Assembly: GCF_000411295.1 (NCBI RefSeq)
Contig: NZ_KE150421.1
Span: 69,265-133,264, forward strand
From: Paenisporosarcina sp. HGH0030
GTDB lineage: Bacteria > Bacillota > Bacilli > Bacillales_A > Planococcaceae
Reading direction: 5' to 3'
Length of the DNA: 64,000 nucleotides
Numbering within the stretch: position 1 is the first letter of the stretch; the number at the start of each line of letters is the position of its first letter. Positions 1,913 to 55,492 of the stretch are shown here, one piece after another. A model generated the notes under the pieces. That model saw nothing but the letters and a program-made list of their open reading frames with translations. It searched no databases and was not told where the DNA came from. Position numbers and translations under genes: made by a program.

Positions 1913-4831
1913 TTATGCTCCTTCACCATCTCCAGGAGGTGGTTCTACTGGAGGTGGTTCTACTGGAGGTGGCTCTACTGGAGGCGGCTTAGGTTTCGGA
2001 TCCGGTTTAGGTTTTGGATCTGGCTTCGGCTTTGGTTCTGTACCAGGTTTAGGTTCTGGTTCAGGTGCTGCTACATTTACCATATTGGATGCGGGAGATT
2101 GGTTCCCTGTAATATCCACAGCAACCACGAAGTATGTGCCTGGGCTGCTCAATTGATACGAGTTGCCACTTGCTTCTTTGACGGAAGTTAACAAAGCATT
2201 GCCACCAGTACTTTTGAACACTCGGTATCCAACGACATCTTTGGAAGCGGAATTCGACCAAGTTAGAGTTCTTCCTGAAATGGAAGCAGAAACTGATCCC
2301 GGTGAAGCCCCATCAGCATCGAATGTATCTTCAGATACTACCCGGTCTGCAAAACTAGAATTTTGAGGAAAAAGCTTACTTGCATCACCGTTGATATTGC
2401 CAAACATACGATTAATAAAGTCTTTGTTCACACCAACTCCACCACTGACTACAAATTCGCTAGGTGTTGACGAAAGTGCGCGATAACGTTTGCCATCGAT
2501 CATGACGTAAGATGATGAGACGAAGCTATCATCTGCTTTCCTTGGTACGTAAGTGTTGGCATTGAATAAATCAGATCTAACAAGACCTGCACGAGAACAT
2601 TCTTCTGATGGAGACATTCCTGAAATTGCACAGAATGAACGAGAGACAACGCCTTTAGGCTGCTTGAATCCGGCAGCTGGGTCCACCAGTTCAGGATTCA
2701 CATCATATGAACTATTCATCAATCTAGCCCATAACATATTGACGCGAGTTCCTGGTTGTTGATAAGTACCATTCGAAATATTTAAATTGGTTGGAGTATC
2801 GTAACCTAGCCATACACCAAGTGTAATAGAAGGGTTATATCCCATGAACCAAACATCGTGTGCATTATTTGTTGTTCCCGTTTTAGCTGCAAAATCAGAA
2901 TTGAATTTCAATTCCGATTGCGCCCGTCTACCAGTACCCTCAGATAACACATCTCTTAGCATATCAGTTACGATATATGATGTTTGTGGAGAGTAGACAG
3001 GTACAGCTTTTGATTGATGCTTGAAAATAATATTGCCATCAGCATCTTCAATTTTCTCAATCATATATGAATCGATAAATTGACCACCATTCGCCAAAGT
3101 GGCATAAGCATTTGTGTTTTCTTCAATTGTGACACCATTTCTAATACCACCAATTGAAGCGGAAAGGTTTACATAATCCTCATCTATTAAACGAGAGAAT
3201 CCGAGTTTTTTTAAAAATTCGGCTGGACGTTTTTCGACAATTTGATTATACAATCTTAAAGCTGCCAAGTTTTGTGAAGTTGCCAGTGCCTGTCGGGCAG
3301 GAATGATACCAAGTTCTTGCTCTTTATTGAAGTTTCCAGGTGAGTATGGATTTCCACTGCCGTCTACATAGTCTTTGAATGCAACATCGACGACCGGACT
3401 TCCAGCACCGATCACACCATACTCAATGGCAGGAGCATAAATTAATAAAGGCTTCATGGTTGAACCATTTTGACGATATCTTTGTGTTGCATGATTTGAT
3501 GCTTCAATTTCATAACTACGTCCACCGATAAAACTTAAGATTCTGCCCGTACTATTTTCCATCAGCACACTGCCTACCTGAACAGGTTCTTCAACCCATT
3601 CATTTTTTTGTGATTCAGCATTGTATTTTTCAACCTTGATAGATGGGCCATAGTTTTTAAATTCATCTTTAACTTTTTGATGAGCGTCATACATTTCTTT
3701 GTCTATGGTTGAATGTATTCGGTAGCCGTTATTACGCATTGCACGATCGGCCATAATTGTATATTTTTCATTTAATTTTTCTTCATCTTTTAAACGAGAA
3801 GGGTCAATGCCGTCTTTTTCAGCTAACAATTCCGCTATAATCTGTTTTGCTTGGCGTTCCAATTCATATGTTAAGAAAGGGTATCTTTCCTGAGGTAATA
3901 ATTCAGGAGAACGGAAATCTTTTTTAATATCGTAAGCAATCGCTCCGTTATATTCTTGTTCCGTTATGTAGCCGGTTTCTTTCATACGATACAGAACTGT
4001 CAGCATCCGATCGATTCCTGGTTTCAGACCATCATCATCTTTCAATAAACCTCCAGAAGTGAATGGTGTATGAGCGAAAGGTGCTTGCGGAATGCCCGCT
4101 ATAAAAGCAGCCTGAGGTAAATTTAAATCTTTTGCTTTGACATTGAAAATTCCTTCTGCGGCGGTTTCAATCCCTGCAATATTGGCACCAGAAGCGTTGC
4201 GGCCGTAGGGGATGATATTTAAATAAGCTTCCAGAATTTCATCTTTTTCCATGAATTTTTCAAGGCGCATGGCAAGAAGAATTTCTTTTGCTTTGCGTTC
4301 ATAGGAAACTTCATTTGTGAGAATCTGATTTTTGATTAACTGTTGTGTAAGTGTGGATCCACCTGTCTGGCTATCAGAATTCGTTACATCCTGCAGTAGC
4401 CCACGGAAAATAGCCTTTGGCACGATTCCATCATGTACTGGGAAATATTCATCTTCCGTTGCATACACTGCATCAAGGACATAAGGAGAGACTTCCTCAA
4501 GCTTCGTTTCACGACGCTGTAAATCTGTTCTTATTTTCCCTAAGTACACATTGTTCGCAAAATATACTTCTGAGGTCTCTTCATAACTGAAGATGGATGC
4601 GCGCATATCCGCTTCTTCACGAAGTGGTTCCTGATCGACTAGTGAAGCGAAATATCCAGCTGCCACCGATCCTGCAAATGCGCCGCCTACCAAAAGGACA
4701 ATAAGCAAAATTAATGCGAGATTCCAGATGACCCCTGAGGTAATGCGCAAGCCTTTAGCCCACTGTGCATTCGTCCACCTATCCCATGTTTCGTTTATTT
4801 TTTTCAACCAGTTTTTTACTTGATCATTCAA
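1913..4831 (-). CDS. Class A penicillin-binding protein (transglycosylase/transpeptidase)
   Basis: Bifunctional peptidoglycan polymerase anchored in the membrane. The start is a TTG at 4831 preceded by AGGAGG; the upstream in-frame ATG has no such site. A cytoplasmic tail and one membrane helix (about residues 35-58) lead into a GT51 domain with the GGSTLTQQLIKNQIL signature. The transpeptidase domain has GSTMKP (active Ser near 455), SQN and KTGTTN (near 650). A fibronectin-III-like module and a Pro-rich tail (EPKPKPDPKPK and repeated PPPVE) end the 972-residue protein. The tail resembles that of PBP1 (PonA), but the neighbourhood is not that of ponA, so I give no symbol. The gene converges on acsA and diverges from tyrS. 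Confidence 0.93.
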   Translation of the reverse strand: MNDQVKNWLKKINETWDRWTNAQWAKGLRITSGVIWNLALILLIVLLVGGAFAGSVAAGYFASLVDQEPLREEADMRASIFSYEETSEVYFANNVYLGKIRTDLQRRETKLEEVSPYVLDAVYATEDEYFPVHDGIVPKAIFRGLLQDVTNSDSQTGGSTLTQQLIKNQILTNEVSYERKAKEILLAMRLEKFMEKDEILEAYLNIIPYGRNASGANIAGIETAAEGIFNVKAKDLNLPQAAFIAGIPQAPFAHTPFTSGGLLKDDDGLKPGIDRMLTVLYRMKETGYITEQEYNGAIAYDIKKDFRSPELLPQERYPFLTYELERQAKQIIAELLAEKDGIDPSRLKDEEKLNEKYTIMADRAMRNNGYRIHSTIDKEMYDAHQKVKDEFKNYGPSIKVEKYNAESQKNEWVEEPVQVGSVLMENSTGRILSFIGGRSYEIEASNHATQRYRQNGSTMKPLLIYAPAIEYGVIGAGSPVVDVAFKDYVDGSGNPYSPGNFNKEQELGIIPARQALATSQNLAALRLYNQIVEKRPAEFLKKLGFSRLIDEDYVNLSASIGGIRNGVTIEENTNAYATLANGGQFIDSYMIEKIEDADGNIIFKHQSKAVPVYSPQTSYIVTDMLRDVLSEGTGRRAQSELKFNSDFAAKTGTTNNAHDVWFMGYNPSITLGVWLGYDTPTNLNISNGTYQQPGTRVNMLWARLMNSSYDVNPELVDPAAGFKQPKGVVSRSFCAISGMSPSEECSRAGLVRSDLFNANTYVPRKADDSFVSSSYVMIDGKRYRALSSTPSEFVVSGGVGVNKDFINRMFGNINGDASKLFPQNSSFADRVVSEDTFDADGASPGSVSASISGRTLTWSNSASKDVVGYRVFKSTGGNALLTSVKEASGNSYQLSSPGTYFVVAVDITGNQSPASNMVNVAAPEPEPKPGTEPKPKPDPKPKPDPKPKPPPVEPPPVEPPPVEPPPGDGEGA

Positions 4832-4924
4832 CCGAATCGACCTCCTAAAATCTTGTCCTATTATATCATAAAATGGTAGATGCCTAATATATTTATTGAC
4901 AACGAACAATAAAAGCGTACAATG

Positions 4925-5171
4925 AAAAAATATATATTATTTTGAGTGATGAAAAGTCCGAAGTAATGAATGCAAGTGCTGTTTAGAGAGCCAGCGGGTG
5001 GTGAAAGCTGGTCAGTGTGCATACATGAATTACAGGCTGGGAGCTTAAACGTCAACACAACGATACTGTGTCTGATGAGCGGAAGGACTGGTTCCTTCAA
5101 GCTGGGTGGTACCGCGCAAATTGTATTTAGCGTCCCTGCATGATTTTTATTAATCGTGCAGGGACTTTTTT
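4925..5171 (+). promoter_or_regulatory. Tyr-specific T-box leader of tyrS with antiterminator and terminator
   Basis: The invariant T-box GGGTGGTACCGCG is at 5104-5116. The AGAGAG element of stem I lies near 4985, and TAC (Tyr) codons at 5031-5033 and 5022-5024 are specifier candidates. The terminator hairpin CCCTGCATGAT / ATCGTGCAGGG plus T-run ends at about 5171. T-box leaders bind uncharged tRNA, which favours read-through. Here that would raise tyrosyl-tRNA synthetase when Tyr-tRNA is uncharged. Which TAC is the specifier was not settled by folding. Confidence 0.93.
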
Positions 5172-5172
5172 A

Positions 5173-6576
<1,404 letters not shown>

Positions 6577-6585
6577 CACAAGAGG

Positions 6586-6620
6586 AAAGACCGTTTTATT
6601 ATAAAAACGGTCTTTTTTAT
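6586..6620 (+). terminator. Terminator of tyrS
   Basis: GACCGTTTT / AAAACGGTC hairpin followed by six T. Confidence 0.9.
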
Positions 6621-6689
6621 TAAAAGAATGACATGTTTCCAACGAACCACCATTCACCGTTAAACTGTGATGATTTTTGCCTTAAAAGT

Positions 6690-6733
6690 AAAGCTGCCTT
6701 GATGACTAATATCGTCATCAAGGCAGCTTTTTT
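6690..6733. terminator. Terminator of the cobalamin-binding-like gene
   Basis: AAAGCTGCCTTGATGAC / GTCATCAAGGCAGCTTT is a near-perfect 17-base inverted repeat with T on both outer sides. It lies immediately downstream of the minus-strand gene ending at 6739. Confidence 0.85.
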
Positions 6734-6738
6734 CGTAA

Positions 6739-7554
6739 TCACTTATTTTCAGTAATCCATGTAGGTAATTCTAAATCGGCATAAATATCTGGATGTAGGA
6801 TATTGGCGAGCTTAAACGCACCTTCCAAAAGGCGCGGGGAGGGACGGCAATACAATTCTTCTTCCATTATATGTACATTGTTCTTTTGTAAATCTGTTAG
6901 ATTCTCATAACCAGACCGTTTTTCAACAACTTTTTTATTCACTTTAGATAGCTGAACGCCAACCCAAGCAAGGAAAATATAGTCCGGATTGCGACGCATT
7001 ACATCATCCCAATCTGTCTGAACACTTGCCAATTCAACGTCACGAAAGACATTGCGCCCACCAGAAACTTCACTGACTTCAGTTAACCAATTTACCTGTC
7101 CTGGTGTAAAGATTGGTTTCGGCCACCACTCCCAATATAATTCGGGATAAGTGGAAACAAGGGTAGCGCGAATCTTCATTTCATCAACAAATTTTCTGTA
7201 TTCCAAGACGATCTTTTCAGCCTCAACAGAAATACCACATGCGTGACCAACAATCAGTAAATCCTCTGCAATATCGTTTAAACTTTGAGGATTCAACACA
7301 AGATGGGGAATACCACGATCTACTAATTCGTTCACATTTTTCTCCATACCAGGAACACTGAGTGAAGCCAATACAAGATCAGGCTCTAATGCCTCTAGTG
7401 CATCGATATCAATTGACAAATCCGGACCTAATCGAGGTAAATGTTGAACTGAAGAAGGCCAATCAGAAAAGTCGTCGAGTCCGACAAGCTGATCCGTTAA
7501 GCCTAAATAGGCAAGAACTTCAGTATTGCTAGGGCATATAGAAATGAGTCTCAT
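6739..7554 (-). CDS. Periplasmic-binding-protein fold, cobalamin/siderophore-type, without signal peptide
   Basis: 271 residues starting MRLISICPSNTEVLAYLGL, the opening typical of BtuF/TroA-type binding proteins (class III, two lobes joined by a helix). LEPDLVLAS and RNPDYIFLAW are the usual lobe-end strands. There is no signal peptide or lipobox, and no permease or ATPase gene adjoins it. It therefore resembles the cytosolic 'cobalamin-binding protein' homologues found in many Firmicutes, whose ligand is uncertain. AAAGGAG precedes the ATG. It is the first gene of the insertion between tyrS and rpsD. Confidence 0.75.
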   Translation of the reverse strand: MRLISICPSNTEVLAYLGLTDQLVGLDDFSDWPSSVQHLPRLGPDLSIDIDALEALEPDLVLASLSVPGMEKNVNELVDRGIPHLVLNPQSLNDIAEDLLIVGHACGISVEAEKIVLEYRKFVDEMKIRATLVSTYPELYWEWWPKPIFTPGQVNWLTEVSEVSGGRNVFRDVELASVQTDWDDVMRRNPDYIFLAWVGVQLSKVNKKVVEKRSGYENLTDLQKNNVHIMEEELYCRPSPRLLEGAFKLANILHPDIYADLELPTWITENK

Positions 7555-7695: not shown

Positions 7696-8415
7696 TCACC
7701 CTACCTGGATAATTTGCAGGGTGGCCAATTTGTAGCTAAAATGCTCCTGTAATTCTGCTTGGATTTTAACAATATCTCCTTCTAGCAATGAAACTAAATC
7801 AGAAGAGGACAGGGAGGTAGCAGTGGTGGATTCGGTGAACGACGATACTACCGTAATGGCGTCATTTATCTTTACGTGAAATGTCGATGGCGAACAAGTT
7901 ATTGTATTTGATGCCAATATGATTTTATAGCTAATTTGATAAATCCCTGATTTCAATACTTTCAGGCCGTCTTGCATTAACTCTACATCTTGGAGTGGTC
8001 CAGGCATGATAAATCTAACAGCCCCAGACGCTTTGCTCATTACATTGCAAATGCCGAAACCATGAGCTGCTTGCAATATACCTGGTGGTCCAGGAGGGCC
8101 TTGATCCCCTTTAGGTCCTTGTATTCCTTGTAGACCTCTAATACCTTGATCACCACTGGGACCTGGGGGACCTTGATCCCCTTTTGGACCTTGTATTCCT
8201 TGTAGACCTCTAATGCCTTGATCACCACTGGGACCTGGAGGACCTTGATTACCTTTAGGTCCTTTTAAACCTTGTGGGCCCTGCTGGCCTTTTGGTCCAG
8301 GGGGGCCTTGTTCTCCTCTAAAACCAACGGGACCTTGATAGCCTCTAGGACCTCTAGGCCCACGTGCGCAATTACAATTATTCGATGATCCATTACATTT
8401 TGGACAGCGATCCAA
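7696..8415 (-). CDS. Collagen-like (Gly-X-Y) spore-surface-type protein
   Basis: A Cys-rich head ([15 protein letters not shown]) is followed by about 31 uninterrupted Gly-X-Y triplets. A roughly 120-residue globular C-terminal domain (from ILQAAHGF to [10 protein letters not shown]) has the look of the BclA/C1q/TNF-like trimerisation domains. Within the triplets a unit [20 protein letters not shown]... is present twice in tandem. I prefer the TTG start at 8415, six bases after GGAAGG; an ATG at 8475 in frame would add 20 residues but has only a weak site. By analogy with exosporium hairs of Bacillus it may form trimeric filaments on the spore, but no exosporium-targeting motif is obvious. 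Transcribed after the PKD-type gene, 77 bases apart. Confidence 0.8.
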
Positions 8416-27700: not shown

Positions 27701-27732
27701 TTATTCAACTTACGGGGCAGTTAATTGAATAA
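27701..27732 (+). repeat. Cassette palindrome, B type, degenerate
   Basis: TTATTCAA and TTGAATAA arms around ACTTACGGGGCAGTTAA. The B-type core is GGGGCAG. It precedes the small gene at 27759 by 26 bases. Confidence 0.7.
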
Positions 27733-28319: not shown

Positions 28320-28352
28320 TTCTTCTTGAACTAACGGGACAGATTAGTTAGA
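28320..28352 (+). repeat. Cassette palindrome
   Basis: TTCTTCTTGAACTAACGGGA then CAGATTAGTTAGA, a variant of the B type (GGGACAG core). Last element of the first repeat cluster; no gene follows on this strand. Confidence 0.65.
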
Positions 28353-32700: not shown

Positions 32701-33738
32701 TTACTTTCCTCCGCGTAAAATAGAATAATAAATATCATTGTAGCTGTTTAAAATGACTTTTGAGTGACAATTTAAGGTGTTCAGTGGATAACTATAAATA
32801 TATTAACACTGTCTAAAGACAAAAATTGAGCTTAAAGAGGAGTTTGTCATCTCCATTATTCAGATAACAAACTCCTTTTTGATTACTTTATTTAGTGATT
32901 AGCGTAACTTAATTAAAGCTAGCAATCAGTTTTCCAGTGACCTCTCTATAGTATGGAATATATAAAAATTAAAGGTTTTGATTAAACTTTTTTCAAAAGA
33001 CAAAAATTAGTCGTACTGATATATCAACGTTCTTACCATATTTTTAATCAAACTTTTTTATAAAGCTACATAATGAGATAGAAAAAGCACCCACAATTTG
33101 TGAGCGACTAAATGTTTCATTCTCCTGTTTTCATGAACGTTCGTATTTCTTCAATTCATTTTTCAAGACAATAAAAAGCACCTCCGAAGAGATGCATTAG
33201 TTCAAATAAGTATTCACGGATAGTAGCCATGTCCATTATTAGTACATTCAGGTCTAGGACCATTACTTCGTGTTCGTCTTGAGCACTTGCTCCCGTAGCA
33301 AAAGATAAACTCAATAGTAATAGAGTTCCTGTAGCTACTTACAATAATCTCTTTTTCTTTTTCATAATTTCCATCCTCCGTTTTTAGAAATTATTGTGTT
33401 ACATTATACAATATTTTCTAAATACCTTTTTATTTATTAGAATTTTTAAACTTTTATAAAGGAAACTTAGAAAGTAGTCTGTAGTTTTGAAACAAAGTTG
33501 CGATGTTTTGTTAACAGGCAGACGTAATCTAGCAAAGGGGTAGCGTCAGGGAAATGCGGATTTACAACGTTAAGGAAATCCTCATATTAAAAAACCTAAT
33601 TTCTCAATAAATGCTGGGAAATTAGGCTTTTTTCGTTACTACATTAAAGCGCCCTTTTATTGAATAAGAATTTTCTTCAAATATTTTTACTTCAGTAATG
33701 TATATTTCAGCAAAGGCTTTTTATAAAACGTCACTTAC
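32701..33738. other. One-kilobase stretch with a dead peptide gene and terminators
   Basis: Apart from the pseudogene at 33156-33365 I see two terminator-like hairpins. One is at 32836-32881 (GAGTTTGTCATCT / AGATAACAAACTC with T-run) and one at 33587-33636 (AAACCTAATTTC / GAAATTAGGC with T-run). The rest is AT-rich without frames. Confidence 0.45.
33156..33365 (-). pseudogene. Secreted small-peptide gene, inactivated
   Basis: After GGAGG, ATG AAA AAG AAA AAG AGA TTA TTG is followed by an in-frame TAA (33339-33341). Beyond it the same frame reads VATGTLLLLSLSFATGASAQ, an ideal signal peptide with an Ala-x-Ala site. In the next frame the region after it reads RSNGPRPECTNNGHGYYP-stop (33214). 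So the ancestral product was probably a secreted 15-25-residue peptide, now broken by a nonsense codon and a frameshift. Confidence 0.5.
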
Positions 33739-34191: not shown

Positions 34192-34654
34192 AGTCTTATC
34201 TCCTTATGTGTAAAAATTTATTATCTGATCATCTTCATAATTATTCTATTAAAAAGTTACAAATTCCTTCCAAACAAAAAACACCTTGTCACAGTATAGG
34301 AAAATGTGAAATTGGGTTTTGGTGTATGTCATATAACATCTTGTTAACGAACAACACTTCGTAAACCCTCTACTATTGGAATAATCGCGAACCTTATTTC
34401 GTGAATGCCATCATATTCGATACCGTAGTTGCTATTCGATAAAACAACTTCGACTTCCCCACAAAATATTCCTACCCTGTACTCCATTAAATGGCCCTTT
34501 AATGGAATAAGGAACGATTATTGTTTCTCTTTGGGGTTGCTTAGGCAACTCTTTTTTCTAATTAAACTAACGGGGCAGGTTACTGCAATAAGAAGGAGTA
34601 ACCTATTCACATCTCGAATTAATTAAATGGATAAAAAAGAAAGAGGGGAAATAT
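34192..34654. other. Intergenic run-up to the cassette array
   Basis: Short hairpin around 34260-34330 only. The first composite repeat of the array starts at 34484; no gene seen. Confidence 0.4.
34484..34592 (+). repeat. Composite cassette boundary 1 (A palindrome, terminator, B palindrome)
   Basis: A-type hairpin CCATTAAA / TTTAATGG in a diverged form, terminator GGGTTGCTTAGGCAACTC plus T-run, then the B palindrome AAACTAACGGGGCAGGTTAC with TTATTGCA-type outer arm. Directly precedes the gene at 34655. Confidence 0.65.
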
Positions 34655-35043: not shown

Positions 35044-35135
35044 TTATTCAACTAACGGACGCTTTAGTTAAAGATCGTGGAGTTGCTTGGGCAGCTCTTT
35101 TTTCTTATTAAACTAACGGGGCAGGTTAGCAAAAG
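35044..35135 (+). repeat. Composite cassette boundary 2
   Basis: A palindrome TTCAACTAA / TTTAGTTAA around CGGACGC (35044-35074), terminator GAGTTGCTTGGGCAGCTC with six T, B palindrome TTAAACTAAC / GGTTAGC around GGGGCAG (35104-35135). Confidence 0.8.
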
Positions 35136-35192: not shown

Positions 35193-35414
35193 ATGGAAAG
35201 TATTTTATTATTAATTTTCGGTGTAGGATTTATTGCTTTTGGGATTAGACACAATAAAAATATTCACAAAGAAGAAGGTTTTGGTCATAGTGGTTCAATT
35301 ATTCTTGAATTTATTACAAGTTGGACAGATAAATTACCATATTGGTTTACAAAAACAATTTATTTATTGATTGGGCTTGGGTGTCTGATTGGCAGTTCTC
35401 TTACATATTATTAA
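35193..35414 (+). CDS. Cassette gene: small membrane protein, unknown
   Basis: 73 residues, GAAAGGAA before ATG. Two hydrophobic segments (SILLLIFGVGFIAFGI at 3-18 and TIYLLIGLGCLIGSSLTYY at 55-73) join a short soluble loop with HKEEGFGHSG. Single gene between two composite repeats. Family not recognised. Confidence 0.7.
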   Translation: MESILLLIFGVGFIAFGIRHNKNIHKEEGFGHSGSIILEFITSWTDKLPYWFTKTIYLLIGLGCLIGSSLTYY

Positions 35415-35430: not shown

Positions 35431-35525
35431 TCTACTTAAACTAACGGGTGCTTTAGTTAAAGATCATCGGGTTGTTATGCAGCCCTTTTTCTTATTAAAC
35501 TAACGAGGCAGGTTAGTTGAAGAAG
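35431..35525 (+). repeat. Composite cassette boundary 3
   Basis: A palindrome AAACTAA / TTTAGTTAA around CGGGTGC, terminator GGGTTGTTATGCAGCCC with T-run, B palindrome AAACTAAC / GTTAGTTGAAGAA with core GAGGCAG (one base off the usual GGGGCAG). Confidence 0.8.
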
Positions 35526-35585: not shown

Positions 35586-35993
35586 ATGTCTCGTGCAGGG
35601 TTAGATAAGCTGAGGATTTTAGAGATATCCAAAGATAAAATAGGTAGATATGTGAAATTCAGGGCAACTCTTGCTGATGGCACATTAGATTTTCGATGCG
35701 AATTAGATGCTTTAACATATAAACACTTAAGAGAATCAGTTTCAAAAAAGTATTTTGACTCACTTGCTTCAGGTTACCAATACGATTTAATTCTTAATAT
35801 TCAACAAAATCTAAATGATAATCCTGATTTACCCTTTAAAGGAAAAATAAGATGTACACAAGGCAATCGAGCAATTCAAGTAGAATTTCCTTGCTCCGAA
35901 AGATTTGCCGGAAATATAAATTGGTTTACAATGGAAGTTAAAACTACAAAAGACATTCAACATTTAGAATGGACAAGGTTTTCTTTAGATTAA
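35586..35993 (+). CDS. Cassette gene: soluble protein, unknown
   Basis: 135 residues, ATG 35586 after GAAAGTGGTG. Opens MSRAGLDKLRILEISKDKIG; alternating hydrophobic pattern and pairs such as KGKIRCTQGNRAIQVEFPC suggest a beta-rich fold. No signal peptide. One of two genes in this cassette; the only array interval with two. Not recognised. Confidence 0.7.
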   Translation: MSRAGLDKLRILEISKDKIGRYVKFRATLADGTLDFRCELDALTYKHLRESVSKKYFDSLASGYQYDLILNIQQNLNDNPDLPFKGKIRCTQGNRAIQVEFPCSERFAGNINWFTMEVKTTKDIQHLEWTRFSLD

Positions 35994-36076
35994 AAGGACC
36001 AGTAAGAGTGTCAAATAAAGCGAAGTATTTTTGGATGATCTAGCTTTTTACAATAACCGTTAAAGAGGTGAATTTA

Positions 36077-36505
36077 ATGAGTGAGTGTATTTATATTAAT
36101 AATATTGATTCTACTCCGGAATGGAAGAAGATTTTAACTACAGTTATCGAATATAGTGATGAATTTGCAATTGTGTTTCCGAATGGTGAATATGATGCAG
36201 ATAACCCTTTATTAGCAGGAATGCTTGATTTTAAAAATCTTCCTAATATCAGCGTTTCTCCTTGGCCTAATATGAAAGACAGTAGTGTCTATAGAGCGGA
36301 ACTTAATGATACTTCAAGGAACTTAATTCTTAATTACACACTAAATGATACGTTTGATTCCCTTTGGAATTTCAGCTTATACAAAGGAGATTTAGAAGTC
36401 TTAAACGTAGCAGATTTCAGTGAATGCTTCATATACCCTGATCCTGAAGTGATAATGTTGGTAACCCAAAATGGTATAGATTTGAGCCGATTTGACAAAT
36501 GGTAA
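36077..36505 (+). CDS. Cassette gene: soluble protein, unknown
   Basis: 142 residues, ATG 36077 seven bases after AAAGAGGTG (an in-frame GTG at 36068 lies inside that site). Acidic, with WNFSLYKGDLEVLNVADFSE near residue 98. It begins 84 bases after the previous gene without a palindrome between, so the two probably share a transcript or came in as one unit. Recalls immunity or Imm-type small acidic proteins in composition, but no motif supports that. Confidence 0.7.
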   Translation: MSECIYINNIDSTPEWKKILTTVIEYSDEFAIVFPNGEYDADNPLLAGMLDFKNLPNISVSPWPNMKDSSVYRAELNDTSRNLILNYTLNDTFDSLWNFSLYKGDLEVLNVADFSECFIYPDPEVIMLVTQNGIDLSRFDKW

Positions 36506-36528: not shown

Positions 36529-36619
36529 TTCTTCAACTAACGGGTGCTTTAGTTGAAGAACATCGGGCTGCGTAAGCAGCTTTTTCTTATTGAACTAACG
36601 GGGCAGGTTAGTTGAACAA
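36529..36619 (+). repeat. Composite cassette boundary 4 (most complete)
   Basis: A palindrome: perfect 12-base arms TTCTTCAACTAA / TTAGTTGAAGAA around CGGGTGCT (36529-36560). Terminator GGGCTGCGTAAGCAGC plus T-run. B palindrome: arms TTGAACTAAC / GTTAGTTGAA around GGGGCAG (36590-36619). Best example of the repeat unit, 91 bases end to end. Confidence 0.9.
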
Positions 36620-36690
36620 AAAGGTGAGAATTCATCTCTCTATTATGTCGAATTTGATTCATATTGTGAAAGAATGAGGAGGGGTTATAA

Positions 36691-36903
36691 TTGGCTAATA
36701 AATATTGTCCTATATGTGGAGAGGAAAACGAATGTATGACAGGAAGAGTAGAACACGGTAACTGCTGGTGTGATACAGAAGGCGTATTTCCTATTGGAAT
36801 CTTTGAGTTAGTTCCTACAGAGAGTATAAGGAAGAATTGTATATGTGAAAAATGTGTAAATAAATATAGGGACGAAGCGAAAATAAAGAAAGATATGTTG
36901 TGA
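36691..36903 (+). CDS. Cassette gene: Cys-rich CWC-family small protein
   Basis: 70 residues from TTG 36691 after GAGGAGGGG. Motif CPICGEENEC ... GNCWCDT ... CICEKCVNKY gives eight Cys arranged as in the 'cysteine-rich CWC' family, probably a zinc-binding fold. Role unknown. Complete, with its own boundary repeats. Confidence 0.8.
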   Translation: MANKYCPICGEENECMTGRVEHGNCWCDTEGVFPIGIFELVPTESIRKNCICEKCVNKYRDEAKIKKDML

Positions 36904-36940: not shown

Positions 36941-36973
36941 TTGTTTAACTAAACGGTAGCTTTAGTTGAAGAA
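36941..36973 (+). repeat. Cassette A palindrome
   Basis: TTTAACTAAA / CTTTAGTTGAA arms around CGGTAG, followed by terminator CGGCTGCCTTTTACAGGGCAG and seven T. The B palindrome is not adjacent here but comes 145 bases later. Confidence 0.75.
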
Positions 36974-37118: not shown

Positions 37119-37150
37119 TGTTCTACTAACGGGGCAGGTTAGTTGAATAA
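37119..37150 (+). repeat. Cassette B palindrome
   Basis: TTCTACTAAC / GTTAGTTGAATAA around GGGGCAG. Precedes the gene at 37198 by 47 bases. The 145 bases before it hold a remnant A-like string (GAGCTTTAACGGACGG), suggesting loss of a cassette here. Confidence 0.75.
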
Positions 37151-37197: not shown

Positions 37198-37737
37198 GTG
37201 AAAAAAACAGCAGTGTTAATATACCCTCAATATAGTGAGTATGAGCTAAGTGTTGCATTATCCATTCTTATGCAGGGAGAGAAACCTGTCATAACTATCG
37301 GTCTAAATAATTTGCCTATTAGAGGCGAATCTGGACTAACTTGTTTAACTGATACTACAATTGATGAAGTAAACCTTGAGGAGATAGATAGTCTTTTATT
37401 AACAGGTTGTATGGATATATTAGCATTAGAAGGTAAGAAAGAAATATTTGAGTTTATAAGTCGAATAGAGAGTAAAGCAACTGTAATTGGAAGCATTTCA
37501 AGTTCTCCGTATCTTTTAGCAAATGCAGGGCTTTTAAACGGCAAAAAATATACTATTGGTATGACAGAAGAAAACCGAGAGAAGTCTGGTGTTTTTGAAA
37601 AGGAAAACTATAGTGAAGAACTTGTAGTCCAAGATGGAAAGCTGATAACTGCAAGGGGCAGAGGGTTTATAAGATTCGGGGTATGTTTTGGAAAAGCATT
37701 AAACCTGAAATTTGATGAAAATTGGTATAAGGAATAG
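37198..37737 (+). CDS. Cassette gene: DJ-1/PfpI-superfamily protein
   Basis: 179 residues, GTG 37198 after TAGGAGG. Opens KKTAVLIYPQYSEYELSVALSIL and runs through LLLTGCMDILAL and VIGSISSSPYLLANAGLLNGKKYTIG to VVQDGKLITARGRGFIRFG, the pattern of DJ-1/PfpI proteins. The nucleophile Cys is missing: the elbow reads GSISSSPY where family enzymes have AICHG. So it is probably not a protease or deglycase; a binding role is possible. Largest but one of the cassette genes. Confidence 0.75.
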   Translation: MKKTAVLIYPQYSEYELSVALSILMQGEKPVITIGLNNLPIRGESGLTCLTDTTIDEVNLEEIDSLLLTGCMDILALEGKKEIFEFISRIESKATVIGSISSSPYLLANAGLLNGKKYTIGMTEENREKSGVFEKENYSEELVVQDGKLITARGRGFIRFGVCFGKALNLKFDENWYKE

Positions 37738-37741
37738 GGTC

Positions 37742-37864
37742 TTCTTCAAGTAACTGGGGGCTTTATTTAAAGTACATTGGGCTTGCTTTGGTAGCTCTTT
37801 TTTCTTATTGAACTCCCATGAAAATTAATCTTATCCAACTAACGGGGCAGGTTAGTTCAATAAG
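37742..37864 (+). repeat. Composite cassette boundary 5 (rearranged)
   Basis: Decayed A palindrome (TTCTTCAAG / CTTTATTTAAAG), terminator GGGCTTGCTTTGGTAGCTC with T-run, a truncated B start (TTCTTATTGAACT) and, 25 bases on, a full B palindrome CCAACTAAC / GTTAGTTCAATAAG around GGGGCAG. The half copy suggests recombination between repeats. Confidence 0.75.
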
Positions 37865-37926: not shown

Positions 37927-38634
37927 ATGTTGTATTTATTCATTTTATTTCTAGCTACTCAATTAGGTATTTGGATTAGGTACTTTGTAAAAGGGTTTAT
38001 TGAACTTTCACAATTGGGTCTTAGCTGTTTGTTTTTAGTAGCTGCGGTAGTATTTTTTATTATTGAAATTCTTCAAAGTAAAAAAGATGCACAGTTTAAA
38101 CCAAAATCAGAAGATCTTTGGCAAACAAGATTAACAGAACGTTCTAAAACGACGGAAAAGAAACTTACAAAAGGCAATCAACGTATTTTTCGCTATAGGC
38201 GGTATTATCCTACTTTTTGGCAACGTTTATTTGTTGAGTTGGTAAATGCCTCCGATAAATATATCCATCTGGCTTTTTTTAATGAAACCAAGCGAGTAGA
38301 GTGGCAAGAGTATAGTAAATTTACTTCTAACAAAGTTGTTTGGAAAGTAATAGAGAATGGCATAGAAATCGCGGAAGCTCGTTATACCCCGAAGATAAAA
38401 GATAAACTAAATTTTGAGGATAAGTTAGCCATCCATATTCAAGACGAAACCTATCAATTACTATCCTATAAAGTGAGTAATCAAGTTTTGGTTTATAAAG
38501 ATTCACAAAAGATTAGCGAAGCCGATTTGTCAAAATTAGTGATGGGAAATTTAGAGTTTCGCATACATGATACGAATGAAGAACTATTAGCCATGGCAAT
38601 TGTGCTATTTCAATATTTACATAAAAGTGGCTGA
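37927..38634 (+). CDS. Cassette gene: membrane-anchored protein, unknown
   Basis: 235 residues, ATG after GGAGGAGGAAT. Two membrane helices in the first 55 residues (LYLFILFLATQLGIWI and LGLSCLFLVAAVVFFIIEIL) are followed by a basic linker. The soluble domain of about 150 residues is rich in beta strands (KVIENGIEIAEARYTPK, DETYQLLSYKVSNQVLVYKD), resembling tubby- or PH-like phospholipid-binding folds only loosely. Not recognised. Confidence 0.7.
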   Translation: MLYLFILFLATQLGIWIRYFVKGFIELSQLGLSCLFLVAAVVFFIIEILQSKKDAQFKPKSEDLWQTRLTERSKTTEKKLTKGNQRIFRYRRYYPTFWQRLFVELVNASDKYIHLAFFNETKRVEWQEYSKFTSNKVVWKVIENGIEIAEARYTPKIKDKLNFEDKLAIHIQDETYQLLSYKVSNQVLVYKDSQKISEADLSKLVMGNLEFRIHDTNEELLAMAIVLFQYLHKSG

Positions 38635-38765: not shown

Positions 38766-38859
38766 TTCTTCAAATAACGGGTGCGTTAGTTAAAGATCAT
38801 GGATTGCTTAGGCGGCTCTTTTTTCTTATTGAACTAACGGGGCAGGTTAGTTCAATAAG
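38766..38859 (+). repeat. Composite cassette boundary 6
   Basis: A palindrome TTCAAATAAC / GTTAGTTAAAGA around GGGTGC, terminator GGATTGCTTAGGCGGCTC with T-run, B palindrome with perfect 14-base arms CTTATTGAACTAAC / GTTAGTTCAATAAG around GGGGCAG (38825-38859). Confidence 0.9.
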
Positions 38860-38918
38860 AGAAGGTGAAGTTTTATATCGTATTTGACACAAAATGCGTA
38901 ACAGAAAGGGTGTTATTA

Positions 38919-39152
38919 ATGCTTTGGAATTATAGAGTATTGAAAAAACAAATAAGTGAAAAAGAAGTTGTCTTTGATATTTGCGAGGTTTATTACAAAG
39001 ATGGTGAACCTAATGGTTGGGTGTGGGATGAGAACATTCTAAAACAAGAATCATTAGAAGATTTAAAAGATGCTTTGATTGGAATACAGGAGGCTTTGAA
39101 GCAACCCGTACTTGAAATCATTGGTGATGATGAAGGATTAAGAGAGATTTAA
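38919..39152 (+). CDS. Cassette gene: small hypothetical protein of a widespread family
   Basis: 77 residues from ATG 38919 with AGAAAGGGTG nine bases before; the in-frame GTG at 38865 has no site. MLWNYRVLKKQ ... FDICEVYYKDGEPNGWVWDE ... LEDLKDALIGIQEALKQPVLEI. I recall similar 'NYRV..k....' small proteins in many bacterial phyla, including integron cassettes, without known function; that is from memory. Complete. Confidence 0.75.
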   Translation: MLWNYRVLKKQISEKEVVFDICEVYYKDGEPNGWVWDENILKQESLEDLKDALIGIQEALKQPVLEIIGDDEGLREI

Positions 39153-39194
39153 TGCGTCACATTACGACCATAATGTGTAATAAAAGAAAAAGTG

Positions 39195-39229
39195 CTTATT
39201 GAACTAACGGGGCAGGTTAGTTCAATAAG
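39195..39229 (+). repeat. Cassette B palindrome (identical copy)
   Basis: Same 35 bases as 38825-38859, followed by the same AGAA. No A palindrome or terminator precedes it, so the 3' boundary of the previous cassette is missing. Confidence 0.9.
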
Positions 39230-39285
39230 AGAAATTAAAAATAATGTTTAACTGAAAGTAAAACCAATAAGGGAGTAATTAATGA

Positions 39286-39621
39286 ATGATAAAAAAACTG
39301 AACCAATTTACATTAGTTGATGTAATTGAAAGGAAAATTCATTTCACAAATACAAATACTATATACGATAAAATAGATTTTGAAGATATGAATGAAGGTG
39401 AATTGCAGGCTTATCATGAAATGTTGGCGGATGTTAAAGAAATGAATGAAAGTGAATTTGTAAGTAAGTACCTAAATATTATAAATAAACTTACTGTACA
39501 GTCCGAAAACGAAGAACTTACGGACAAGAGAGAGATAGAAAAAATGTCTGGATATAATAATGCCATAGTATCTATCTTAGAATGTATAAACCCGATTTAT
39601 GAGTATGATTTAGAGGAATAG
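39286..39621 (+). CDS. Cassette gene: small acidic protein, unknown
   Basis: 111 residues, ATG 39286 ten bases after AAGGGAG. Mostly helical and acidic: MNEGELQAYHEMLADVKEMN, TDKREIEKMSGYNNAIVSIL, ending NPIYEYDLEE. No membrane segment. Last gene of the array. Small acidic cytosolic proteins can be antitoxins or immunity proteins, but no partner is seen. Confidence 0.7.
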   Translation: MIKKLNQFTLVDVIERKIHFTNTNTIYDKIDFEDMNEGELQAYHEMLADVKEMNESEFVSKYLNIINKLTVQSENEELTDKREIEKMSGYNNAIVSILECINPIYEYDLEE

Positions 39622-39630
39622 TCCATCATG

Positions 39631-39666
39631 TCTTATTGAACTAACGGGTGCTTTAGTTTAATAAGA
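39631..39666 (+). repeat. Cassette A palindrome, end of the array
   Basis: Arms TCTTATTGAACTAA / TTAGTTTAATAAGA (one mismatch in 14) around CGGGTGCT. Closes the last cassette; nothing but a terminator follows before msrC. Confidence 0.88.
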
Positions 39667-54352: not shown

Positions 54353-54478
54353 CACGCTAAACTGAAAAAGTCGTTACATTAGACTTCGATGTGAAACCAT
54401 AACCGAAATTTTATTTAAACTGTGCTGATATTGACCTTTCTTCATGTTCTAATCCAACGTGAAGGAAGGTTATTTTTT

Positions 54479-55492
54479 ATGGCTCCGCGAAAGAGGAAAA
54501 CACAAGTAGTTAAACAAGTTTCGGGTTTGTCATTCCAACGTGCAAGAGAAATTGTAATAAACATTAAAGCCGTTGAAGGAAAAGCGGATAATACAATTGA
54601 GAATTATCACAAACTGTTCAATGACTTTGACCGATTCTTTATGCACAGAAAGCTTATATCTAATGTTACTACTGAAGACGCAAGAAACTTCATCAAATGG
54701 CAACTAGAAGAAAAAACACAATTTCTCAATGCACGTTTTCGAACGAATAAGAAGAAGGGTGTAACTGTTACATCGGCTAATTCGTATCTAAGATTAGCAA
54801 AAGCGGCATTTGAAACTCTTGTACGAGACGGCTCATTAGAAAATAACCCATTTTCTCCGTTGACTAAAATTAAACAGCAGACAAAGCAAATAGAAGTTCT
54901 GACGATTGAGCAAGTCAAAACAATCTTCAAGGCTTTTGATAAAACTTGGTATGCAGATTTTCGTGACTATGTTGTGTGCAATGTTATGTTAGACACATTT
55001 GGAAGAATAGATGAGATATGTAACTTGAAAAAAGCTCATGTGGATTATTTAAATGGAGTAGTTACTTTTAATGAAACAAAAAATGGTCGATTTCGTCACG
55101 TGCCAATTTCTCGTAAAGTGGTTAGAATGATTGAGGATTTAAATTTGGAAACAGAGGATTTTTACAGTGAATACATTTTTGTCAGTAATCATGGTACAAC
55201 TTTAAGACCAGACGCTTTCAGAAAGCATTTAAAAGAGGTTATAGGACGTACAAATATTAAAACAAGGGTATATCCACATTTATTTCGTCACACGGCTAGT
55301 ACCTTGTTTTTAGCGAATGGTGGAAGTGTAAGAGCCTTACAAAAAATACTAGGACATGCACAAATTGAAACGACTATGATTTATTCTCACATGCTGGATG
55401 AAACTATAAAGACCCAACATGAACTATTCAACCCATTAAAAATGATAAATGAAAAAACTACAATTAAAACTAAAAGAAAAACCTACACTTAA
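54479..55492 (+). CDS. Tyrosine recombinase (integrase)
   Basis: 337 residues from ATG 54479 after GAAGGAAGG; 126 bases after ackA. SAM-like N-terminal domain (33-120, TIENYHKLFNDFDRFF) and catalytic domain with Arg176, Lys201, His267-x-x-Arg270, His293 and nucleophile Tyr302 (MIYSHMLDE), all present. XerC/D-like mobile-element integrase, not the integron IntI type since no extra helix insertion is seen. Marks the left end of the accessory island. Its attachment site is not visible by eye. Confidence 0.9.
   Translation: MAPRKRKTQVVKQVSGLSFQRAREIVINIKAVEGKADNTIENYHKLFNDFDRFFMHRKLISNVTTEDARNFIKWQLEEKTQFLNARFRTNKKKGVTVTSANSYLRLAKAAFETLVRDGSLENNPFSPLTKIKQQTKQIEVLTIEQVKTIFKAFDKTWYADFRDYVVCNVMLDTFGRIDEICNLKKAHVDYLNGVVTFNETKNGRFRHVPISRKVVRMIEDLNLETEDFYSEYIFVSNHGTTLRPDAFRKHLKEVIGRTNIKTRVYPHLFRHTASTLFLANGGSVRALQKILGHAQIETTMIYSHMLDETIKTQHELFNPLKMINEKTTIKTKRKTYT

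Follow-up and report, generated by a model that had tools for sequence, protein, structure and literature searches.

The boundary at positions 36529–36619 of the analysed window, a stretch of 64,000 nucleotides from the genome of Paenisporosarcina sp. HGH0030, raises the question of what is inherited between the small genes of an array: the single palindromes or, as proposed in a first-pass annotation, the entire composite in which an A-type palindrome, a terminator hairpin and a B-type palindrome follow each other. In agreement with the arm lengths described there, the A core (36535–36554, AACTAACGGGTGCTTTAGTT) carries arms of 12 bp as read from the sequence, and the B core (36593–36613, AACTAACGGGGCAGGTTAGTT) arms of 10 bp with one mismatch, of 7 bp if pairing has to be perfect. 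On folding as single strands, the A core forms a DNA hairpin of -9.5 kcal/mol with a z-score of -7.1, and the B core reaches a z-score of -2.7. Between both, folding predicts an intrinsic-terminator-like hairpin (GGGCTGC-GCAGCTT) with a T-run at 36565–36587, whose RNA hairpin at 36565–36582 together with the T-run amounts to -10.4 kcal/mol (z -3.3). The same order is found, as claimed, in five places of the window (35050–35131, 35439–35518, 36535–36613, 37748–37857 and 38772–38852), each unit being about 80–110 nt long. Our analysis suggests that the earlier reading was half right, in that the order is real but the composite appears to consist of two junctions around a terminator segment of about 40 nt. 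We consider it highly probable that the window contains one array of an integron-like cassette system of Planococcaceae and relatives, in which a tyrosine recombinase termed YR1 most likely exchanges half-sites.

All features of the array are located on the plus strand. A degenerate B-type site at 27707–27726 defines its left edge and is followed by a B-type site of the GGGACAG variant at 28329–28349 and by another B-type site, read from the sequence, at 34565–34585 after a terminator hairpin at about 34534–34554. Further downstream, an A-type (35050–35069) and a B-type site (35111–35131) with a terminator predicted between them (35078–35098) precede an ORF for a small membrane protein of 73 amino acids without a Pfam match above cut-off (35193–35414), whereas two ORFs without a Pfam family match, encoding 135 (35586–35993) and 145 amino acids (36068–36505), follow on the next A-type and B-type sites (35439–35458 and 35498–35518) and extend up to the unit under study. 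The gene beyond this unit (36691–36903) encodes 70 amino acids of the Cys_rich_CWC family (PF14375), of which two more copies reside in other arrays of the genome, and it is succeeded by an A-type site with a subsequent terminator (site at 36947–36967), a B-type site (37124–37144), a DJ-1/PfpI family protein of 179 amino acids (37198–37737), an A-like site (37748–37768), a B-type site (37837–37857) and a Tubby_C_like protein of 235 amino acids (37927–38634). The array ends with an A-type (38772–38791) and a B-type site (38832–38852), an ORF of 95 amino acids (38865–39152), a B-type site without upstream A or terminator (39202–39222), an ORF of 111 amino acids (39286–39621) and an A-type site at the right edge (39639–39658). 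Two palindrome-like repeats near the array, AAAGCGCCCTTTTATTGAATAAG at 33644–33680 and CCATTAAATGGCCCTTTAATGGAATAAGG at 34481–34515, resemble sites of other types and are perhaps remnants of related systems.

Both types of sites share a common layout, where the arms YTTNTTNAACTAA and TTAGTTNAANAAR surround a spacer with the sequence CGGGTGCT in A and CGGGGCAG[G/T] in B (a pair that can also be written as CGGGTGCT and CGGGGCAGG), resulting in a length of about 21 bp, or 35 bp with arms. The left half is common to A (AACTAACGGG-TGCTTTAGTT) and B (AACTAACGGG-GCAG[G/T]TTAGTT), while the spacer differs. Within the explanation that we favour, and with the same strong confidence, A and B would constitute two spacer variants of one recombination site. 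With up to three mismatches allowed, the B core is present in 131 copies in the 3.52-Mb genome, grouped in about ten clusters, compared to none for a reversed-pattern control, which excludes an origin by chance. Neither type corresponds to a family in Rfam, whose sole match in the window is a T-box leader (RF00230) at 4940–5140 upstream of an ORF at 5269–6576, and a search of the text of papers for the site motif returned unrelated primers only.

The order of both site types is reflected in the distribution of neighbours located less than 130 nt apart, which in this genome comprise 38 A-B pairs, no B-A pair and one each of A-A and B-B, and in other genomes 132 A-B, 2 B-A, 4 A-A and 4 B-B pairs. 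The fixed order of the annotation is thus strongly non-random, with the correction that B sites without an upstream A are common. If all neighbours are counted, 30 B-B pairs are found versus 49 A-B pairs in this genome and 144 versus 203 elsewhere, with 17 and 68 A-A pairs, respectively. A and B also differ in what comes next. A T-run within 75 nt follows 60 of 81 A sites but only 29 of 99 B sites in this genome (p = 3e-9), and 251 of 348 compared to 136 of 475 in other genomes (p = 7e-36). Conversely, a ribosome-binding site and an ORF directly follow B in 68 of 100 cases and A in 20 of 94; the next site is less than 130 nt away for 42 of 94 A sites. The right halves of A usually lead into a terminator and those of B into a gene, and it is for this difference that the composite can be described as a terminator segment flanked by two junctions. 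The abundance of T-runs after A compared to B makes the suggested insulation of a cassette from the transcript of its neighbour plausible, with the hairpins acting as putative terminators.

The location of the join was mapped on 1015 distinct sites, taken from the genome of the window and from others, using pairs that share one neighbour only and long flanking regions. In copies of a cassette residing in different arrays, identity ends inside the A or B palindromes, within a repeat of 21–35 bp. Position -1 matches in 86% (28% at random) of 43 independent pairs that have their left cassette in common, while the last base of the spacer (43%, random 45%) and position +4 (37%, random 33%) stay close to the random level. 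The opposite is found in 40 pairs that share their right cassette, where the agreement is 42% at position -1, 76% at the last spacer base and 90% at position +4. Mixed A/B types are accordingly found in 8 of the 43 same-left pairs but in only 1 of the 40 same-right pairs. Since the left arm tracks the left cassette, whereas the end of the spacer and the right arm track the right one, the join falls inside AACTAACGG, which makes each palindrome a hybrid of two half-sites, with the left half belonging to the upstream cassette and the right half, together with its spacer of type A or B, to the cassette that follows. In the A-type site at 36535–36554, AACTAACGGG is thus the contribution of the upstream cassette and TGCTTTAGTT that of the following element. 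In the strict set of pairs, spacer bases 2–3 do not clearly side with either neighbour, and the exchange point is for that reason placed to about 8–10 bp only; a sharper join inside AAC-TAA-C, obtained in a map with 100-nt flanks, was discarded as this map was dominated by shared terminators. In comparisons within the genome, 14 of 72 match ends fall at a site in both copies (p = 6e-7, for ends that are not fully independent). As expected from the shuffling of left and right arms, there is no excess of complementarity between them (92 of 306 compared to an expected 104.6 ± 7.9; 123 compared to 117.3 ± 7.1), and without such co-variation it is less likely that the site has to adopt a long hairpin with perfect pairing.

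With breakpoints located inside single A and single B palindromes, the proposed inheritance of the whole composite in place of the single palindrome is not supported. This is illustrated by one upstream gene that leads directly into B in one genome (G000, L033:16219) and into an A-type terminator in the sister strain G061 (L202:11128), with the two sequences diverging right after AACTAACGGG. The unit can move together with its gene, as the region 36529–36878 of the window recurs at L031:5666–6015 with 96.6% identity including the CWC gene, whereas in a third copy of this cassette (L033:3211) B stands straight after another gene without an A-terminator segment.

The sister strain, which is assigned to the same species and is 97–99% or more identical in shared DNA, differs in the contents of its arrays, with many of the junctions located at sites. 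Where the window carries two cassettes of 95 and 111 amino acids (38832–39639), G061 lacks both and instead contains a different single cassette of 690 bp, with both joints at sites, B on the left and A on the right. In the comparison of both genomes, 8 of 25 match ends coincide with a strict site in both, while such sites cover 3.9% of the array bases (p = 3e-6, again for ends that are not fully independent), and many match ends are located away from any recognisable site. At the single B site at 28329–28349, G061 carries an extra 2.76 kb with further sites (L194:4698–7476), a difference that probably originates from a deletion in the lineage of the window; this place was dropped as a clean example of an empty site, as the right joint of the difference is not a site.

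A candidate for the enzyme is found among the eight tyrosine-recombinase matches of the genome, which include two identical copies of YR1, a protein of 279 amino acids. Both intact copies (C1:499450–500286 and C1:587943–588779) are located outside the window, inside arrays and on the strand opposite to the sites, and decayed copies are found in other arrays. YR1 contains a PF00589 domain (136.8 bits) with an R-K-H-R-H-Y active site, whose residues R138, K162, H228, R231, H254 and Y263 are invariant or nearly so among 36 sequences, R138 and H228 being spaced by 90 residues. Its score of 224.2 exceeds the cut-off of 220 for XerA_Arch, whereas the 95.9 bits for integron integrases (TIGR02249) remain far below the cut-off of 265. 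A structure model (pLDDT 78, pTM 0.56) has its best fold matches in 4a8e, 1a0p and 5hxy (Z 17.9, 17.4 and 13.3), and in an alignment of its residues 2–260 with residues 2–299 of IntI4, the latter is about 39 residues longer over the same span. By sequence and predicted fold, YR1 is thus XerA/XerD-like. A separate phage-type tyrosine integrase gene at 54422–55492 of the window is about 24% identical to YR1.

The relationship between YR1 and the sites is reflected in their co-occurrence. Among genomes of the family, relatives with about 80% identity or more are encoded in 24 of the 33 that contain five or more B sites, compared to 10 of the remaining 167 (Fisher odds ratio 42, p = 5e-16, a value that is optimistic since the genomes are related). 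At 23 distinct YR1 loci, a site is located 75–78 nt 5' of the start in 19 cases, and an A-type site 39–48 nt (typically about 43 nt) 3' of the stop in 21. On the start side, conservation covers the stretch between gene and site up to and including the left half of the latter (..AGACATAGGGTGTATTTT[T/G]ACTAAC), with unrelated sequence beyond, whereas on the stop side it starts in the right half of the A-type site and runs into the terminator. Because conserved sequence reaches the half-sites at both ends, the YR1 gene with the adjoining half is itself flanked by half-sites, and the site about 76 nt from the start, where a conserved left half beside a divergently oriented recombinase gene is combined with a variable right half, has attI-like properties. 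Together, these observations point to a platform of recombinase and site, and to YR1 as the most likely catalyst of cassette exchange. G061 contains 95 sites without a full-length YR1, and 9 of the 33 site-rich genomes lack a close relative, which requires that the enzyme was lost or acts in trans.

Sites were detected in 80 of 200 sampled genomes of the family and in 101 of 261 of the order, including the genera Paenisporosarcina, Psychrobacillus, Viridibacillus, Solibacillus, Sporosarcina and relatives, and are nearly absent in the rest of the class, where six genomes contain one or two. All sites within an array share one orientation, and this orientation extends to the level of the chromosome. 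In the complete genome of G061, 94 of 95 sites, in 13 separate clusters, are co-directed with replication: with dnaA at 331, the first half of the chromosome contains 41 of 42 plus-strand sites, and the second half all 53 on the minus strand. Similarly, all listed sites of another genome (G128, whose dnaA lies on the minus strand at 3.19 Mb) are directed away from the origin. A similar preference of chromosomal integrons was explained by strand exposure (PMC11023631); here, the cause may also be a strand bias of genes or the harm done by inversions between sites in opposite orientation.

The 118 cassettes of the genome's own arrays have a median length of 551 bp and usually contain one small gene, with the largest ORF directed along the array in 92 of 115. 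Ordinary genes may be part of the longer site-to-site intervals. Seventy cargo proteins match 59 Pfam families, few of them more than once, among them DinB, GNAT, chloramphenicol acetyltransferase, APH, HAD, SUKH, DJ-1 and many DUFs. Genes predicted to encode a chloramphenicol acetyltransferase and an APH-family protein are located between sites at L037:8046–8645 and L033:8201–9097. PADLOC returned three weak matches only for the 70 proteins, and by that test the arrays are thus not defence islands. On the plasmid pSP10-266k of Sporosarcina psychrophila (NZ_CP146247.1), a YR1 relative of 84.6% identity is flanked by an A-type site and an attI-like one, and a mercury-resistance cassette, a merR-merA-NUDIX segment (L264, locus 4108–6829), is bracketed by a B site and an A site.

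In the mechanism that we propose, YR1, itself encoded in an array cassette, would join half-sites at AACTAACGG. Incoming cassettes, perhaps in the form of circles, would enter at the attI-like site beside its gene or elsewhere in an array, at any of its sites, and could be lost between direct repeats. An A-type half-site would usually be followed by a terminator at which transcription from upstream stops. The exchange looks polar, because A and B have different spacers and the spacer is kept by the right-hand neighbour; one strand might be exchanged at the left edge with the rest settled by replication, on sites that could be either duplex or folded single strands.

The junctions at palindromes could also originate from ordinary REP- or MITE-like terminator palindromes, by homologous recombination or the copying activity of an unrelated transposase. 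Such an origin would account for the short length of the sites, their large number, their proximity to terminators and the presence of arrays in genomes without YR1. However, it appears unlikely in light of cassette identity that stops within a repeat of 21–35 bp, which is shorter than homologous recombination usually needs, the shuffled left and right arms and the strong co-occurrence with one recombinase, whose gene is located at fixed distances between two sites. IS200/IS605 elements and PATE/REP palindromes share subterminal palindromes and a strict strand orientation with the described sites; their junctions are outside the palindromes and not inside as observed here, and a derivation from IS200/IS605 was rejected for this reason. 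Nor was a Y1 (HUH) transposase noticed in linkage with the sites.

attC sites of integrons contain R and L boxes, are recombined as a folded bottom strand and are joined at G/TTRRRY. The array could thus be conceived as a true IntI/attI/attC integron of unusual sequence, in which the composite would be the attC, its tip the terminator and its R'', L'', L' and R' boxes the four half-palindromes. The divergent recombinase gene, the attI-like site, the co-oriented cassettes with small genes and the orientation to replication are all in line with this assignment, and the region 36529–36619 is able to fold like an attC, giving a single long hairpin (-34 kcal/mol, z -5.0) that is capped by the terminator. 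This fold was given no weight, since palindromes in tandem would pair up anyway, and it is the single palindromes of 21–35 bp that are the junctions, with A and B each also occurring alone and B commonly without A. Combined with the low integrase score of YR1 and the additional residues of IntI4, this renders a true integron very improbable. We assign even less weight to a mobilisation of modules by the XerC/XerD proteins of the host at dif-like sites, despite the presence of XerC/D-like genes in the genome (28–29% identical to YR1) and a modular gene content that is similar in kind to dif modules, because Xer-like genes are general whereas the sites follow YR1, and because all sites of an array point in one direction, while those of dif modules alternate.

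The favoured system of YR1 and its half-sites thus appears integron-like in layout and behaviour, with a recombinase that is not of the IntI type and sites that do not look like typical attCs. It shares with integrons the recombinase gene oriented against the cassettes, one special adjoining site, long co-oriented arrays of small genes, turnover between close strains, the presence on plasmids and the strict orientation to replication, but differs in its XerA/XerD-like enzyme without the extra IntI segment, its short sites of about 21 bp (35 bp with arms) joined in the left part of the palindrome, the many separate arrays per genome, the location of the recombinase between two sites and the terminators between sites. 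The closest matches of YR1 in sequence and fold, archaeal XerA and bacterial XerD and XerH (4a8e, 1a0p, 5hxy), act on a single dif site per chromosome, in contrast to dozens of sites and a gene that resides in a cassette. In the dif modules of Acinetobacter plasmids, small modules often containing accessory or resistance genes are bounded by short Xer-type sites (PMC6449649, PMC13141974). The modules of XerC/XerD and pdif are similar in this arrangement, but the dedicated recombinase, the one-way sites, the long chromosomal arrays and the attI-like site are distinct, and it is the own recombinase combined with co-oriented sites that sets the system apart from them. In Firmicutes, where integrons are reported to be almost absent, IntegronFinder 2.0 detected only one complete integron, in Limnochorda (PMC9024848). 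Since current integron software seeks IntI and attC, it would probably miss the YR1 system, and the open papers searched, with preprints and most subscription journals outside this scope, contain no prior description of such a cassette system in these genera. We incline, with some reserve, towards the wider view that it represents an integron analogue of Bacillota with an origin separate from that of IntI integrons, in which a XerA-type recombinase travels as a cassette and hybrid sites of lox size are joined at a single polar point (perhaps through single-strand exchange), with terminators gained and lost like parts of a kit, and with resistance cassettes on plasmids. If true, gene capture by cassette arrays would have evolved, or was rebuilt, more than once, and the system would provide a two-part testbed consisting of one enzyme of 279 amino acids and one short site, account for the wealth of small uncharacterised genes in these soil bacteria related to Bacillus, and offer a route for mer or acetyltransferase genes on plasmids of Gram-positive bacteria.

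A second clade of recombinases, YR2, which is 61–68% identical to YR1, is found in genomes with few or no B sites (L231–L240, L242; L251, L255). A count of 14-mers around YR2 genes revealed no common repeat, whereas a targeted pattern identified the different but similar repeat GAAAGCGCCCGATTGTTGAGTAA adjoining these genes, with 18 copies in G197 and 17 in G142, which are clustered, and none in a control. YR2 and GAAAGCGCCCGATTGTTGAGTAA probably form a sister cassette system. Elsewhere in the window, direct repeats of 72 nt at 8087–8365 encode collagen-like Gly-X-Y repeats on the minus strand.
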